From: an uncultured bacterium
GTDB lineage: Bacteria; Cyanobacteriota; Vampirovibrionia; Gastranaerophilales; Gastranaerophilaceae
Length of the DNA stretch: 10,831 bases
Assembly (NCBI GenBank): GCA_947365485.1
Contig: CANAXK010000037.1
Coordinates: 1-10,831 of the forward strand
Reading direction: 5' to 3'
Under the pieces are notes generated by a model that saw only the letters and a program-made list of their open reading frames with translations, was not told where the DNA came from and did not search any database. Below, one piece after another: positions 1,837 through 7,667 of this stretch (its first letter is position 1; each line of letters begins with the position of its first letter). The position numbers and the translations under genes were made by a program.

Positions 1837-3429
1837 ATGAACTTTAAAATATCAACAAATTTTAATATTCCAAAAGTTGCGTTTAAGAGCAGCACAGTCC
1901 GTCAATCAAATCCAAACAACCAGCAATTGGAAAAATCTCCAGACAAGGATTCTTTCGAACTCTCTGTCGGCTACGTTAATGATACCCACGGACAAACCAA
2001 TAATATGATAAGAATTTTATCCGGCATAAGAGGCGATCTGAGACTCTCAGCAGGCGATAATGATATCGGGGATGAAAAGAACGATAATATCCACAAAGCA
2101 ACAACTAAATTTCTGAACCTGGCTGATATCAAGGCTTCTGCACTCGGAAATCACGAACTCGATACAACCCAGAAGGATTGTATTGATTCAATCAAACGCT
2201 TTAACGGCGACGTACTTGCTGTAAACTACAGAAAAGACCCGCTTGAGCTCCAAACTCCGGAAGATATCGAAAAACTCGGCAGAGCAGAGCTCGATAAACA
2301 CCTCAAAAAATCTGTGATTGTAGAGGTCAAGGGCGAAAAAATCGGATTAATCGGCGCTTCTCCGATGGACATGTTCGAAAGATTAACCCACCCTAATTAT
2401 TATACCGACAGCTACATAGACGATCTTGATACTACTGTGGAACTTATTCAGGACGAAGTCGACGAACTCAAAAAACAGGGCGTTAACAAGATTTTCTTGC
2501 TATCCCACCTGGGGCACAAACGCGATAAGTTTGTAGCTCAGGAAACAGAGGGAATCGACGTAATTATTGGCGGGCATTCGCATGAGTTAATCAAAGATAT
2601 CAAAGAAGGCGAAAATCTATTCTACTCTGAATCAGGTGAGCCTGTTATCCTGACAGAAGCCGGCCGTGATGGTAATTATTTTGGCGAACTTAAACTCACG
2701 TTCGACAAGGACGGGGTTATAACAAAAGCTCAAAACAATCTTGCAGAAACAAGACTTTATCACAGAAACATGGTTCACCAGTATTTGTTCGACAATATTC
2801 TGGGTACACCGGATAAGGTCGGGTACATAAAACAGGCACCTCCGCCGCCAAAGACTCTGACCGAGGAAAACCCGCATGCTAACTTTGTGTGCGATGTTAT
2901 GCGCGCTAAAACAGATTCTGATATTGCGCTCTGGCACCACAGCGGAGTAAGAAACTTCTTCCATGAAGGCCTGATTGATTCAAGCGATGTGAAAGATATT
3001 TCTCCGTTCCTTGACTATGTGGCGGTAGCAGGAGTATCTGAAAAGAAAATAGTAGATTTGTTTAAACACGCAATCGAAACAACTTACGAAACACCAGGGC
3101 ACAAACCGGGCTTGATAGCTGTTTCTGGATTGAATTATACAGTTAACCCTGATGAAGGCAAACTTGTAACAATGAATTTTGTGGACAAACAGGGTAAGGT
3201 ACATAGGATTGATGTGGACAACCCTAGAGAAGATAAGATGTACAAGGTCGTTACAGACGAGTTCTTAATGTCAGCTGGTGCGGATTTTGATATTCTTGCT
3301 CCGGAAGAAGACTACATCAAGAAGTTTTCTTGTGACAAGGATGTTTTGACCTGTGAATACATCAAAGAACTCAATGAGCCGGTAATTATCAACCAGACCG
3401 GACGCATAAATTTCGAATACGATGACTAG
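1837..3429 (+). CDS. UshA-like bifunctional metallophosphatase / 5'-nucleotidase (copy 1)
   Basis: This 530-residue protein has the two-domain UshA layout. The N-terminal calcineurin-like metallophosphatase domain (about 42-300) carries all metal motifs: NDTHG (D49, H51), AGDN (D74), GNHE (N105, H106), SHLGH (H224) and GGHSH (H247, H249). The 5'-nucleotidase C domain (about 340-525) has HSGVR (368-372) and VSGLNYTV in the substrate region. Family members hydrolyse nucleotides, UDP-sugars or related phosphoesters, and the exact substrate is open. UshA proteins are normally exported, but no signal peptide or lipobox is present; instead there is a polar leader of about 40 residues containing KVAFKSS. 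The ATG follows AGAAGG at good spacing. The next gene is a close paralog, more than half identical by eye along the full length. Confidence 0.9.
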   Translation: MNFKISTNFNIPKVAFKSSTVRQSNPNNQQLEKSPDKDSFELSVGYVNDTHGQTNNMIRILSGIRGDLRLSAGDNDIGDEKNDNIHKATTKFLNLADIKASALGNHELDTTQKDCIDSIKRFNGDVLAVNYRKDPLELQTPEDIEKLGRAELDKHLKKSVIVEVKGEKIGLIGASPMDMFERLTHPNYYTDSYIDDLDTTVELIQDEVDELKKQGVNKIFLLSHLGHKRDKFVAQETEGIDVIIGGHSHELIKDIKEGENLFYSESGEPVILTEAGRDGNYFGELKLTFDKDGVITKAQNNLAETRLYHRNMVHQYLFDNILGTPDKVGYIKQAPPPPKTLTEENPHANFVCDVMRAKTDSDIALWHHSGVRNFFHEGLIDSSDVKDISPFLDYVAVAGVSEKKIVDLFKHAIETTYETPGHKPGLIAVSGLNYTVNPDEGKLVTMNFVDKQGKVHRIDVDNPREDKMYKVVTDEFLMSAGADFDILAPEEDYIKKFSCDKDVLTCEYIKELNEPVIINQTGRINFEYDD

Positions 3430-3484
3430 TTTTTGCTAGCAAATTTATTTTTCAGACGTTTTGTTATACAAAAAGCAGGAAGAC

Positions 3485-5062
3485 ATGAATATACATCAAC
3501 TATCAATACCCTTAATAAACCAACACAAATTTTCTTTCAAAAAATCGGAAAATTCAAAAAGAGTTGAGCTTGAAAAATCCCCGAAACAAGATTCTTTTGA
3601 AATGTCAGTGGGATATGTAAACGATATCCATGGCCAAACCAATAACATGATGAGAATTCTATCCGGTATTAAAGGTGATTTGAAAGTCTCTGCTGGCGAT
3701 AACGGTATCGGGGATGAAAAGAATAAGGCTGTAAATAATTCTGTAATCAAGTTCATGAATATTGCAGGCATTCAGGCAACAGCACTCGGGAACCACGAAA
3801 TGGATACGACTCAGAAAGACTATATTGATACGCTTAGCAGATTCGACGGCGATGTGCTTGCCGTAAACTTCAAAAAAGAATCACTTGAAACCCAGGATGC
3901 TGATGATATTAATACATGGGGAAGAGCCGAACTTGATAAACATATCAAAAAATCCAAGATTGTGGAAGTTAAAGGTGAAAAAATCGGACTCATCGGAGCA
4001 GCACCGGTTGATTTTGCTTTAAGAATAACCCATCCGGCCTATCATGCAGACTGTTCGGTAGAGGATTTAGGTGATACAATAGAACTTATTCAACAAGAGA
4101 TTGAAGATTTGAAAACACAGGGCATAAATAAAATATTCCTTCTATCACACCTGGGCAATATTGCTGACAGAATCGTTGCGCTGAATACCGACGGGATTGA
4201 CGTAATTATCGGCGGGCATACGCATGAACTAATCAAAGATATCAAAGAGGGAGAGAACCTTCTGTATTCAAAAACGGGAGAGCCCGTAATAATAACAGAG
4301 GCAGGAAAGAACGGAAAATACTTTGGCGAATTGAACCTGACCTTTGACAACGACGGCGTTATTACAAAAGCCCAAAACAACCTCGGACGCACTGACTTGT
4401 TCCACAAAAACATGATTAATCAGTACGTGTTCGACCAGATTCTAGGCAAACCTGAAGTTGTTGGATATGTAAAACAGGTTGTACCGCCTCCTTCAAGCCT
4501 GATTGAAGAAAACGCGCATGCAAACTTCATGTGCGATGCAATGCGCTATGAGATGAACGCTGATATCGGAATCTGGAACAACAGCGGAACAAGAAGCTTC
4601 TTTACGGAAGGCATAATCGATTCCAGAGACATCAAAGACATTGCACCTTTCGAAGACAGAATCTCTGTGGCCGATGTTTCAGAAGAGAAACTTGTTGATA
4701 TGTTTAAACACGCGATTGAAGCAACCTATAGAACACAGGGCAACAAACCGGGCTTGCTGGCTGTTTCAGGCTTGAATTATACGGTGAGCCCTTCTAAAGG
4801 CAAGCTTGTTGCAATGAATTTTGTGGACAAAAACGGGGTAGAACACCCGATTGATATAGAGAACCCGAGCGAGGAGCGGAAGTACAAAGTTGTACAGGAT
4901 TCTTTCATGATGTTTGAGGGCGCTGACATTGATGTTTTGGCACCTAAGGATGAGTGCGAAAACTTCCCGTTCAATAAAGATTATTTAGCATGCGAATATA
5001 TAAAACACCTGAACAGACCGGTTGTGATAAACCAGACCGGAAGAATCAGGTTCGAGGACTAA
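3485..5062 (+). CDS. UshA-like bifunctional metallophosphatase / 5'-nucleotidase (copy 2)
   Basis: This is a tandem paralog of the preceding gene and keeps the same architecture and all metal motifs: NDIHG (D47, H49), AGDN (D72), GNHE (N103, H104), SHLG (H222) and GGHTH (H245, H247). The C-terminal nucleotidase domain has NSGTR where classical members have an NGG-type loop. ATG 3485 is preferred: it follows AGGAAG and gives an N-terminus (MNIHQLSIPL...FSFKKS) like that of copy 1. The frame can be extended to a TTG at 3461, without support. There is again no signal peptide. Divergence from copy 1 is concentrated in the leader, in the segment after SHLG and around the substrate loop, which suggests different substrates. 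The orphan gene starts three bases after its stop. Confidence 0.9.
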   Translation: MNIHQLSIPLINQHKFSFKKSENSKRVELEKSPKQDSFEMSVGYVNDIHGQTNNMMRILSGIKGDLKVSAGDNGIGDEKNKAVNNSVIKFMNIAGIQATALGNHEMDTTQKDYIDTLSRFDGDVLAVNFKKESLETQDADDINTWGRAELDKHIKKSKIVEVKGEKIGLIGAAPVDFALRITHPAYHADCSVEDLGDTIELIQQEIEDLKTQGINKIFLLSHLGNIADRIVALNTDGIDVIIGGHTHELIKDIKEGENLLYSKTGEPVIITEAGKNGKYFGELNLTFDNDGVITKAQNNLGRTDLFHKNMINQYVFDQILGKPEVVGYVKQVVPPPSSLIEENAHANFMCDAMRYEMNADIGIWNNSGTRSFFTEGIIDSRDIKDIAPFEDRISVADVSEEKLVDMFKHAIEATYRTQGNKPGLLAVSGLNYTVSPSKGKLVAMNFVDKNGVEHPIDIENPSEERKYKVVQDSFMMFEGADIDVLAPKDECENFPFNKDYLACEYIKHLNRPVVINQTGRIRFED

Positions 5063-5602: not shown

Positions 5603-6433
5603 TATTTCTTTTATTGCCCTGTGCAAATATTGAGGCAAGTCAGACGCCATTACCGAGTATTCACTTAACTCCTCTGAAGCGATTTCACCTGTGCGAGAAT
5701 GCAGGTAGACTCCGAGCTTTGCAGCTTCAAAAGGAGAAACATTCTGGGCTAATAGTCCCGCAATAATTCCCGCTAATACATCTCCGGAGCCGGCTTTTGC
5801 AAGCGCAGAGTTTCCGTACTGGTTGATGAAGAAATTATCTCTGTCGCAAATAATTGTTCTGTGGGTTTTTAAGACCGTCACACAATTGTATTTTTCTGTT
5901 AATTTTCTTGCAGAACCCTCTAAATCTGAAAGAACATCTTTTAACTCACACCCCAGAAGCCTTGCTGCTTCAAGCGGGTGGGGGGTGATGATGAGAGAAT
6001 GTTCCCTCTCCTTGAGGAGAGACCCCGAAGGGGCGAGGTTAGGGTGAGGTGTCAAGGTTGTTGAAAGCTTTGCCAGAATATTCAATCCGTCCGCGTCAAT
6101 TACAGTCGGCATGACGGCTCTTTTTATAACTTCTTTGAACAATTTTGGGTTGCCTCCAAGCCCGCAGCCAATCAGAACAACGGAAAAATCTTTTATCTGG
6201 CTTATGCCTTCTTTGTGCGAAAGATAAACCGCTTCCGGAAGCAGGGCTGATACAGAGCGGATAATCTCTTTGTCAGACGCCAGTGCCACAAAACCAGCCC
6301 CAACTTTGAGCGGGCTTATTGTGGATAAGTACGCTGCTCCAATGTAGTTTTTTGAGCCGGCAAAGTTGAGCACTTTGCCGAAAGTACCCTTGTTTGAGTT
6401 TTGTTTTCTAGCTGGCATTTTATAATCAGACAT
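5597..6433 (-). CDS. nnrD: ADP/ATP-dependent (S)-NAD(P)H-hydrate dehydratase, single-domain form
   Basis: NnrD dehydrates the damaged cofactors NADHX and NADPHX back to NAD(P)H using a nucleotide. The ribokinase-like fold is clear: NKGTFGKVLNFAGS (14-27), PLKVGAGFV (41-49), VIDADGLN (111-118), ITPHPLEA (149-156) and the nucleotide/catalytic segment NSALAKAGSGDVLAGIIAGL (208-227). The N-terminal epimerase domain (NnrE) of fused YjeF proteins is absent, so epimerisation must come from elsewhere. Between VIDADGLN and ITPHP there is an extra stretch of about 15-20 residues (LTPHPNLAPSGSLLKERE) encoded by a palindromic repeat at 6004-6049. The ATG overlaps the trmL stop by one base (TAATG), indicating coupling, and the gene ends the operon. 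Confidence 0.92.
   Translation of the reverse strand: MSDYKMPARKQNSNKGTFGKVLNFAGSKNYIGAAYLSTISPLKVGAGFVALASDKEIIRSVSALLPEAVYLSHKEGISQIKDFSVVLIGCGLGGNPKLFKEVIKRAVMPTVIDADGLNILAKLSTTLTPHPNLAPSGSLLKEREHSLIITPHPLEAARLLGCELKDVLSDLEGSARKLTEKYNCVTVLKTHRTIICDRDNFFINQYGNSALAKAGSGDVLAGIIAGLLAQNVSPFEAAKLGVYLHSRTGEIASEELSEYSVMASDLPQYLHRAIKEIL
6004..6049. repeat. REP-like palindromic element inserted in frame in nnrD
   Basis: Two adjacent hairpins are visible: CTCTCC-TTGA-GGAGAG (6006-6021) and CCCC-GAA-GGGG (6023-6033). Flanking CCCT (6004-6007) and AGGG (6041-6044) can pair outside them. The reverse complement contains CCTCACCCTAACCTCGCCCC, the style of a short intergenic palindrome widespread in bacteria that gives LTPHPNLAPSG-like peptides when translated. 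It adds residues to the nnrD product without a frameshift, in a stretch that is not conserved in the family. Confidence 0.65.
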
Positions 6434-6912
6434 TACACTCCGCCAAATTGTCTTATTGCTTCGTAGGCTGTTATTGCAACAGAGTTCGCAAGATTAAGAC
6501 TCCTTTGACCTTCAATCATTGGTATCGTGATTGCGGTTTCCTGTGTGACGTATTCCTGCGGAAGCCCCCTTGATTCAGGCCCGAAGACGATGAAGTCGTT
6601 TTCTTTGAACCTTATATCTGTGTATTTTTTCTTTGATTTTGTGGTCAGATAATAGAATGTACTATCAGGAAACATTTTATACAACTCATCCATTGAGTTA
6701 ATCTTGTGCAAATCAACGCTTTCCCAGTAATCCATTCCTGCTCGCTTTGTGTACTTGTCTGTGAGCGCAAAACCCAGTTTCCCGACAAGGTAGAGGGAAG
6801 CGCCTGTGCAGGCACAAAGCCTTGCAATATTGCCGGTGTTTTGAGGGATTTCGGGTTCGTATAATACAATATTAAGCTTTGTCATCTTTTTTACCATATT
6901 GTCGGCACACAT
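6433..6912 (-). CDS. trmL: tRNA (cytidine/uridine-34 2'-O)-methyltransferase, TrmL-like SPOUT enzyme
   Basis: TrmL methylates the 2'-O of the wobble base in leucine tRNAs using S-adenosylmethionine. The core is complete: EPEIPQNTGNIARLCACTG (19-37), FGPESRGLP (110-118) and the trefoil-knot motif IPMIEGQRSLNLANSVAI (130-147). Family proteins normally begin at the residue here numbered 10 (MTKLNIVLYE), so the first nine residues (MCADNMVKK) are an extension that also occurs on the preceding gene's product. I keep ATG 6912 because the extension is open, and because it differs from the other copy only at synonymous positions; ATG 6885 is the alternative. Neither start has a strong ribosome site. 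The 5' gap is filled by repeat copy A, and the 3' end overlaps nnrD. Confidence 0.93.
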   Translation of the reverse strand: MCADNMVKKMTKLNIVLYEPEIPQNTGNIARLCACTGASLYLVGKLGFALTDKYTKRAGMDYWESVDLHKINSMDELYKMFPDSTFYYLTTKSKKKYTDIRFKENDFIVFGPESRGLPQEYVTQETAITIPMIEGQRSLNLANSVAITAYEAIRQFGGV

Positions 6913-6980
6913 TTTGTATTACTACCAGCTAGATTGAGACTACTCCGTGTGCCTCTGAGACAGCCTACTGGCTGGATGGG
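6886..6980 (-). repeat. Intercistronic repeat copy A, possible structured leader of trmL
   Basis: Read on the minus strand, about 95 nt from CCCATCCAGCCAGTAG to the internal ATG of trmL match copy B (7572-7667), with about ten substitutions and one single-base indel by eye. It fills the gap between the phosphatidyltransferase stop and trmL and runs nine codons into the open frame. Conserved GGCACAC can pair with GTGTGCC, which overlaps the first AUG, and CCAGC can pair with GCTGG. These pairings cross, giving an H-type pseudoknot. A small CTG/CAG hairpin lies between them. Confidence 0.8.
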
Positions 6981-6983
6981 GGG

Positions 6984-7598
6984 CTACTTATCTCTAAATA
7001 GATACTTAGCTTCAATAACTACCGGAAGTCCTCTAACCACGCAGAATACAATCGCGAACACCGCAGCCCAGAATCCAATCGCCCAGATGATTTCTCTATG
7101 AGGGCAAACCGGCATTTTTGCTGCAATAATCAGGATAAACGCGAGCACTTTTGCAACAGCGTAAGAAATTCTCATGAATTTTGAACCTGTTATGAATTTG
7201 CAAACCGGATTAACCTGCATTCCAAACGGAGTAAGCCCCTGCTCCATAGCGGCGCTTCGGATTGTGTCGGTGATAAACCCGCGTGTGATAGCAATAAGAG
7301 GGAAAAGGATGTTCAGCCATCCCATAACGGCAAACAATATCCAGTAAGTGTTCTCAACGATTCTGTCGCCCATGATATCAAGAAGCGCGCCGAACTTTGA
7401 TTCCTCGTGTAATTTTCTTGCAACATATCCGTCAAGCCCGTCAAGCGCAAATGCTATTATTGTAAGCGCGAGCGCCCAAATATAAGCTGCTGTGTTGCCC
7501 TGGCAGGTGTAAATCAAATACACTGCAACGAACATTACGAAAATTCTGAATATTGAAATAAAATTTGCCATTTTTTTCACCATATTGTCGGCACACAT
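6984..7598 (-). CDS. CDP-alcohol phosphatidyltransferase (PgsA-like)
   Basis: This 204-residue integral membrane protein carries the complete CDP-alcohol phosphotransferase signature D-x2-DG-x2-AR-x8-G-x3-D-x3-D (D53, D56, G57, A60, R61, G70, D74, D78), which binds the metal and the CDP-alcohol. About five or six hydrophobic segments follow the usual pattern (for example residues 16-30, 40-52 and 150-160). The family's commonest member makes phosphatidylglycerol phosphate from CDP-diacylglycerol and glycerol-3-phosphate (PgsA), but signature and length alone do not exclude another acceptor. Family N-termini match from residue 10 (MANFISIFRIF). ATG 7571 there is preceded by GGTGA at five bases, a usable ribosome site; ATG 7598 adds the MCADNMVKK leader shared with TrmL. 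Repeat copy B fills the upstream gap. Confidence 0.88.
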   Translation of the reverse strand: MCADNMVKKMANFISIFRIFVMFVAVYLIYTCQGNTAAYIWALALTIIAFALDGLDGYVARKLHEESKFGALLDIMGDRIVENTYWILFAVMGWLNILFPLIAITRGFITDTIRSAAMEQGLTPFGMQVNPVCKFITGSKFMRISYAVAKVLAFILIIAAKMPVCPHREIIWAIGFWAAVFAIVFCVVRGLPVVIEAKYLFRDK

Positions 7599-7667
7599 TT
7601 CATAATACTACCAGCTGGATTTGTGACTACTCCGTGTGCCTCTGGAACAGACTACTGGCTGGATGGG
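7572..7667 (-). repeat. Intercistronic repeat copy B, possible structured leader of the phosphatidyltransferase gene
   Basis: This is the second copy of the ~95-nt element, lying between the oxidoreductase stop and the phosphatidyltransferase. The same crossing pairings are possible (CCAGC with GCTGG; GGCACAC with GTGTGCC over the AUG at 7598), and the small hairpin is extended here to TCTG-TTC-CAGA. A further short GC hairpin (GGGC-ACGC-GCCC) lies just upstream and is absent from copy A. Confidence 0.8.

Follow-up and report, generated by a model that had tools for sequence, protein, structure and literature searches.

A dispersed intergenic repeat with a putative pseudoknot and a ribosome-site-like segment before start codons in a genus of gut Gastranaerophilales

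Autoregulatory pseudoknots of ribosomal-protein mRNAs (S15, alpha operon) lie near the ribosome-binding site, cover the start region and serve one operon each, and MIRU repeats occur as tandem copies between the genes of operons. MIRU are described, in the relevant part of PMC12548453, as short repeats, apparently mobile, whose insertion at a start codon affects the gene little and which carry an open reading frame coupled to the gene at -4 nt. Other structured repeats include ERIC, BOX, RUP and SPRITE (excerpts of PMC2229807, PMC3049150 and PMC12548453), and the abstract of PMC4679880 places TAACTGA direct repeats of Beggiatoaceae and Cyanobacteria mostly within several nt upstream of start codons in one genome, reports no functional pattern among the tagged genes and proposes a translational role.

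The element analysed here was recognised in a window of 10,831 nt (contig CANAXK010000037.1), the whole stretch of DNA under analysis. By description rather than by sequence, and with the -4 overlap outside the frame scan, it resembles MIRU, to the extent that these are covered by the cited text, in inserting at a start codon between genes, the pgsA-trmL gap being found with and without a copy; it differs in having a putative pseudoknot and a Shine-Dalgarno-like segment before the start instead of a coupled reading frame. Unlike ERIC, BOX, RUP and SPRITE, it has no recognised terminal inverted repeat or target duplication, and it has a fixed distance to the start codon, a predicted pseudoknot and other hosts; it is filed under none of MIRU, ERIC, BOX, RUP and SPRITE. 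With the GTAG-tagged REPs associated with RAYT it shares a high extragenic copy number and GTAG motifs (in the element and in a linked 13-mer), but it is about 95 nt long with a long-range helix, not a palindrome of 20-40 bp: its paired strands stand about 30-40 nt apart and form no short GTAG-footed palindrome, and Y1 transposase genes do not track it. The TAACTGA repeats differ in being heptamer direct repeats, and their abstract does not mention a conserved pseudoknot (PMC4679880). Like the S15 and alpha operon structures, the putative pseudoknot of the element lies near the ribosome-binding site, but it occurs over about 37 gene clusters and would end upstream of the ribosome site.

Two copies in one operon and the family to which they belong

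Both window copies (n=2, about 90-95 nt each) lie on the minus strand and almost fill their gaps, as the initial annotation had stated. One is located 5' of a pgsA-like gene, whose product is a CDP-alcohol phosphatidyltransferase (Pfam PF01066), in the gap from the stop codon at 7678-7676 to the probable start at 7571-7569; the other is located 5' of trmL, whose product is a SpoU-type methyltransferase (PF00588), in the gap from the stop codon at 6986-6984 to the probable start at 6885-6883 (Table 1). Their match, put at about 88% by eye, came to 87% mean column identity over 142 aligned columns, with 86% and 91% identity in the two repeat blocks. When one copy was used as a BLAST query against the window's own draft genome (1.63 Mb, 83.8% complete), these two alone were found, at E 1e-41 and 9e-28. 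Minimum-free-energy folds of five single copies were not unusual (z -0.24 to -2.05), and because the folding energies of single copies are ordinary, the case for structure was built on sequence comparison. Elsewhere in the window, positions 1837-3429 and 3461-5062 hold two related genes in tandem, whose repeat blocks share 75-79% identity and of which the first is 5'-nucleotidase/metallophosphatase-like. Within an NAD(P)H-hydrate dehydratase gene, the segment at 6002-6051 is missing in the G144 orthologue and looks similar to a G+C-rich repeat adjoining some elements (L043, L051).

Table 1. Coordinates, in the window, of the two repeat copies and of their putative structural and translational features
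Feature	Positions	Strand	Basis
Copy 5' of pgsA-like gene, best-matching core	7578..7664	-	BLAST, alignment, covariance-model match
Copy 5' of trmL, best-matching core	6892..6977	-	BLAST, alignment, covariance-model match
Helix b strand 1, GGCACAC, pgsA copy	7634..7640	-	covariation; swap z 23.6
Helix b strand 2, GTGTGCC, pgsA copy	7590..7596	-	covariation; swap test
Helix b strand 1, GGCACAC, trmL copy	6947..6953	-	covariation; swap test
Helix b strand 2, GTGTGCC, trmL copy	6904..6910	-	covariation; swap test
Putative stem c 5' strand, CTGTTCC, pgsA copy	7644..7650	-	swap z 8.4
Putative stem c 3' strand, GGAGTAG, pgsA copy	7627..7633	-	swap test
Putative stem c 5' strand, CTGTCTC, trmL copy	6957..6963	-	sequence and family evidence
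Putative stem c 3' strand, GGAGTAG, trmL copy	6940..6946	-	sequence and family evidence
ATGGTG, Shine-Dalgarno-like in the window's subfamily, also an in-frame ATG	7578..7583	-	role inferred
Probable start codon of pgsA-like gene (MANFISIF...)	7569..7571	-	orthologue comparison
Probable start codon of trmL (MTKLNIVL...)	6883..6885	-	orthologue comparison

The two copies belong to a large repeat family. BLAST of a copy over 286 genomes of the order matched four, all of the window's genus and including its own genome; the set found in this way already contained tandem copies about 100 nt apart (in G084, before fliP-like and atpF-like genes) and three letter sets of the helix termed b below (GGCACAC/GTGTGCC, GGGATAC/GTATCCC and GGAGCAC/GTGCTCC). 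The covariance-model search of relatives that had been proposed for the window copies was carried out with a model built from nine copies (R1), which matched 38 of 65 genus genomes at E<=0.01, with 35 matches in the single richest genome (G317), and 16 places in the window's own genome at E<=1. A second model (R2) was run at E<=0.001 on 383 genomes of the order, judged from their order of listing to comprise 50 of the window's genus and 333 others, and matched 33 genomes in 1 of 51 genera; no element was found in other genera of the order by this search, in which 11 candidates per genome were scored and which was less sensitive than the genus search. As far as tested, the family is confined to the window's genus. 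A pattern scan of named genomes, a set that may lack entries for the window's genome or close to it, gave three stretches in two Candidatus Gastranaerophilales assemblies, the nearest named relatives.

Copies taken for further analysis were the BLAST loci, the own-genome loci and the best-scoring R1 matches among the matches listed. Of the 118 arrays into which these 181 copies fall, 89 are single copies, and 10, 8, 7 and 4 contain two, three, four and five copies, respectively, the maximum among the copies taken being 5 units at a period near 100 nt. Four of the 181, with gaps or N, were left out of later tests; the remaining 177 make up 119 arrays and 83 dereplicated copies, of which 68 were parsed in the fixed-register test, 79 in the window scan and 81 in the subclass and strand tests. 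The initial annotation had recognised no known class, and the comparison with Rfam agreed: 4227 families searched against the window at E up to 10 gave 7 matches, none over either copy, and 10 element loci searched at E up to 1 gave 9 matches, none at gathering score, the best near an array being sraA (32 of 56 bits, beside the array of L025). No description of this repeat was found among the best-ranked results of a literature search with most subscription journals outside its coverage.

Some copies end in ACGTGCGTAGCAC, which replaces the ribosome-site-like segment. This 13-mer is itself repeated, in 48 of 65 genus genomes and, across the order, in 79 of 286 genomes and 14 of 50 genera, with a maximum of 115 copies in one genome (44 + 71, G069); the string read backwards occurs 0 or 1 times per genome. 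Among 69 copies of the 13-mer that differ in their flanks, 22 have a stop codon of the opposite strand at -1 to +3 nt from the end; of 3600 random positions, 138 have such a stop in the wider range of -14 to +4. Counts of element and 13-mer correlate across the genus (Fisher p 7e-6, Spearman 0.67), and in other genera the bodies beside the 13-mer look different by eye. There (L232, L240, L250, L256 and others) it often adjoins genes that by eye encode prepilin-like (type IV) N-termini, sometimes in tandem units of about 60 nt. Within G310, 13-mers stand at the stops of opposite-strand ribosomal-protein genes named by eye (L211, 1359-3126), and an open frame resembling Cas9 by eye lies near ribosomal-protein genes (L211, 3532-6000); within G305, elements lie in or beside a repeated palindrome like TAATGTAACACAATATGTATTGTGTTACATTA (L209, 520-790).

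A mobilising partner was sought in several ways. Genes for RAYT-like Y1 transposases (Y1_Tnp; mostly 170-230 aa, 1-8 matches per genome) occur in 36 of 65 genus genomes (e.g. L200-L208), with none found in G000 and G242; their presence is not associated with the element (Fisher p 0.80), and mobilisation by RAYT was rejected. Between 13-mers 589-813 nt apart, no transposase was seen by eye in the frames of L209, L210, L211 and L213, four of 15 13-mer-bounded stretches taken, the other 11 of which were scanned for motifs. By eye, neither target-site duplications nor terminal inverted repeats were recognised in the flanks of the 119 arrays, and no target duplication was recognised between occupied and empty pgsA-trmL sites. 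With a phage origin in view, viral contigs were scanned: the leader pattern had 0 matches in them, and the 16-base tail had 5.

Evidence for pairing

Helix b is a 7-bp pairing, GGxxxAC/GTxxxCC, between strands about 30-40 nt apart. The initial annotation had proposed that GGCACAC and GTGTGCC can pair in both window copies and that compensatory changes be sought, and these were found: in 65 distinct copies, 98.5% of 455 helix b cells were paired and 5 of the 7 pairs showed changes on both strands. A second set of 98 distinct copies, outside model building, had 98.7% of 680 cells paired. The covariation score was reached by 0 of 500 shuffles in each set, and the swap test gave z 23.6 (83 dereplicated copies). 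The outer GG/CC is nearly invariant, and the middle three to four pairs vary widely. Two of the five covariation measures were equalled by shuffles and do not separate well, namely the count of pairs with two-sided changes (equalled by 11 and 15 of 500 shuffles) and the count of further pair types (278 and 44 of 500). Helix b counts lean upward because copies were found and aligned with models containing helix b; letter sets already varied in the first copies (BLAST finds and tandem neighbours), and the G125 copy before pgsA, located via gene order, pairs perfectly (GGCGCAC/GTGCGCC). A strong pairing constraint on helix b is strongly supported by these comparisons.

The second putative helix, stem c, would be formed by the bases immediately flanking the GGxxxAC strand on either side. 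In the swap test with free register it gave z 8.4, a score reached by 0 of 100 swaps (83 dereplicated copies); three control segment pairs gave z -0.8 to -2.3. A strong stem c (score threshold reached) was present in 45 of 83 dereplicated copies in many letter sets, among them TATTCCAA/TTGGAATA, ACTCGTTC/GGACGAGT, CTACAG/CTGTAG and CTGTCCA/TGGACAG. Its register varies between copies; in the fixed-window scan stem c reached z 3.6 only and did not stand out, and the evidence that argues for it is the free-register test. In the pgsA copy, 7650-7644 would pair with 7633-7627 (two G-U pairs) and hold the helix b strand in the loop; in the trmL copy there is one mismatch between the 6957..6963 strand and 6946-6940.

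Because stem c holds one helix b strand in its loop and the other strand is further downstream, the two helices would together make an H-type pseudoknot, each of the two crossing helices having its own covariation (z 23.6 and z 8.4), and judging by these matching mutations the element probably folds in this way. Crossing pairings had been predicted from the window alone, and a crossing stem does appear, but as stem c and not as the CCAGC/GCTGG helix that had been named. Those strands can pair in both window copies; as a general second stem they were rejected, with z 1.0-1.3 in free register and 0.2 in fixed register (68 copies), and compensatory changes were unsupported in general (z 0.2-1.3). 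A 24-copy subclass with GG after helix b gave z 2.2 for this pairing, the 57 others gave -0.6, and a 4-nt window scan had its top z (4.1; z sd 1.3 over 520 window pairs) on the CCAGC/GCTGG diagonal, so that the helix may form in the GG subclass.

If the folding strand is the strand read here, G-U is expected to be tolerated and A-C is not. Stem c gave z 4.4 with Watson-Crick pairs only, 7.7 with G-T and 2.6 with A-C (81 copies), and the non-Watson-Crick cells of helix b comprised 17 G-T, 6 A-C and 12 other, a tally in which several cells come from one array and within-array repeats are counted more than once. Stem c is clear in start-adjacent copies (n=44), where z was 6.3 for Watson-Crick pairs, 6.8 with G-T and 5.4 with A-C, a small contrast; the contrast comes mainly from the other copies (n=37), with z -0.8, 3.1 and -1.7, respectively. 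The folding strand is likely the gene-sense strand of start-adjacent copies, as RNA or single-stranded DNA.

Placement at start codons and history at single loci

By a simple open-frame rule, 73 of 118 arrays are flanked by same-strand genes without touching a called frame, 11 overlap such a frame, and in 22 the next gene is on the opposite strand. A same-strand start was found within 46 nt of 82 of 119 arrays, in 62 of these at 4-7 nt past the model end; the other 37 have no such start, and some of them end in another tail beside stop codons. An ATG start stands 4-7 nt after the 3' end in 60 of 119 arrays, compared with 61 of 4760 positions picked at random from those loci, and at 4-7 nt off the other end on the other strand in 0 of 119, so placement relative to starts is not random. 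A leader role is not general, since 37 of 119 arrays have no nearby start and 11 of 118 overlap frames.

The pairing had been thought to cover the start codon of the gene; instead the start lies outside helix b, 16-18 nt past its end in 56 of 63 distinct start-adjacent arrays. The segment between them contains AAAGG in 44 of the 63 and ATGGT in 10, with no motif in 4, and would act as a Shine-Dalgarno sequence. An ATG at helix b is present in 60 of the 63, but just 21 of those 60 share the frame of the gene and read into it without a stop; it was rejected as the start codon for most copies, and in most the internal ATG does not provide a reading frame that runs into the gene. The window's helix ATGs (7598-7596 and 6912-6910) are in frame in both genes, and the G144 orthologue has its helix ATG out of frame and begins at an ATG further downstream. 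Orthologue comparison makes 7571 and 6885 the probable window starts, with the in-frame ATGs at 7583 and 6897, or the helix ATGs, as conceivable alternatives.

Downstream genes, listed as had been suggested, fall into 37 clusters, a few of them probably spurious given the simple open-frame rule, and bear out the placement before unrelated genes that two copies had indicated. The pgsA-like gene follows 12 arrays, the atpF-like 10, the obg-like 7 and the pyrG-like 5, with others besides; the names atpF-like, obg-like, pyrG-like and those of most other downstream genes are our presumed assignments from sequence. Copies also precede apparent first genes, e.g. an obg-like gene after a divergent neighbour. 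A metabolite riboswitch, one of the regulators proposed at the outset, is unlikely because the roughly 37 clusters share no evident pathway.

The gap after pgsA was read by eye in 28 genomes (in 2 of 30 loci, L152 and L153, the pgsA start was not found, and the ATG at 7583 was taken as the pgsA start for G000 and G242). The element was present in G000 and its near relative G242; 21 genomes had no element and trmL a few nt away or overlapping, among them G144, which is 97% identical in PgsA, and 5 had other sequence. Because the other genomes read have trmL close by or other sequence, the trmL copy probably either was inserted recently or arose by local duplication of the pgsA copy. Upstream of pgsA itself, the element is present in some orthologues, in decayed form in some and lacking in others. 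Gaps without it in G310 (L139), G312 (L145), G313 (L131) and G254 (L140) contain A+T-rich repeats like AGTTTAGAAG, and because other repeats fill this gap where the element is missing, it looks like a hot spot of repeat turnover.

Mean identity was 0.69 between copies at the same gene in different genomes (n=158), 0.68 between copies at different genes of the same genome (n=190) and 0.64 between unrelated pairs (n=2949); since both classes exceed unrelated pairs, in-place inheritance and within-genome spread both seem to occur. At atpF, GGGAGAC, GGGTGAC and GGGATAC are found in copies 75-85% alike outside the helix. The G307 array before atpF has GGGTGAC/GTCACCC beside GGGAGAC/GTCACCC (one mismatch), its orthologues having GGGAGAC/GTCTCCC, and the mismatched copies look like a compensatory change midway. 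Transposition by itself does not readily account for pairing that persists at fixed sites; gene conversion could also explain it.

Competing explanations and significance

The reading preferred here, at a probability of about 45%, is that the element is a portable, self-contained leader that brings a ribosome-binding site and descends from a mobile repeat; it builds on the family, covariation, placement and ribosome-site-like segment computed above. One member of a dispersed, locally duplicating family would insert or duplicate between a stop and a start codon, and its Shine-Dalgarno-like segment would replace the native ribosome-binding site. Stem c would close a hairpin whose loop carries the GGxxxAC strand, which would pair with GTxxxCC about 30-40 nt on, and the upstream RNA would fold compactly into a knot whose end is 16-18 nt short of the start codon, roughly where an initiating 30S subunit would have its upstream boundary. 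Because such a knot would leave the ribosome site open, insertion would be tolerated and initiation insulated from the upstream gene. Mobility, insulation and an effect on translation are what we infer; a mobile leader element, which the initial annotation had offered as one option, fits the dispersed and tandem copies.

A selfish MITE- or REP-like DNA repeat is a possible if doubtful reading, in which the structure serves only transposition (as single-stranded DNA or RNA) and the placement reflects harmless sites. Tandem arrays, the 22 of 118 arrays whose next gene is on the opposite strand, the 35 matches in G317, the copies with the other 3' tail (ending at opposite-strand stops in 22 of 69) and the probable local copying within the window's operon all point that way, and the asymmetry of G-T over A-C is neutral, as it fits single-stranded DNA too. 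Dead, fixed copies should, however, lose their pairing, yet pairing seems to be restored in place, barring gene conversion, and harmless insertion alone gives no reason to expect a spacing of 4-7 nt together with a Shine-Dalgarno-like segment of the element's own. Retention of pairing at the same genes across genomes (pgsA-like, atpF-like, obg-like and pyrG-like) despite changes of letter would be expected of a host regulatory RNA, in which a protein, small RNA or ion binds the pseudoknot and switches the translation of a set of housekeeping genes (among them those for ATP synthase, CTP synthase, Obg and PgsA), the regulon having grown as copies spread. The excess of same-gene over unrelated identity and the GTAG motifs at similar places in the copies compared are consistent with this, but the roughly 37 downstream clusters have no evident common pathway, many pgsA orthologues have no element, same-genome copies are as alike as same-gene copies, which fits spread, and no binding partner is known; such a regulator is rather unlikely. 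Least probable by far is an element of mRNA processing, attenuation or stability between operon genes, for which ERIC and BIME repeats are precedents in the excerpted text of PMC2229807 and PMC3049150: the 73 of 118 arrays between same-strand genes would agree with it, but copies also stand before apparent first genes, such as the obg-like one, and their position is tied to the start codon and not to the upstream stop.

That the element is a new pseudoknotted cis-acting RNA class, spread in one genus of gut Gastranaerophilales and setting the translation of dozens of housekeeping genes, is doubtful; if true, a mobile ribosome-binding site would have assembled a regulon while its base pairs evolved anew at the occupied sites. 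Small repeats are often viewed as passive DNA, and this one has apparently coevolving helices and a ribosome-site-like segment, with half of its arrays a few nt before a start codon, those of core genes among them. If the portable-leader proposal holds, mobile sequences can rewire translation while leaving operons unbroken, and the family would offer a natural set of leaders, with many letter sets per knot, for testing upstream structure against initiation.
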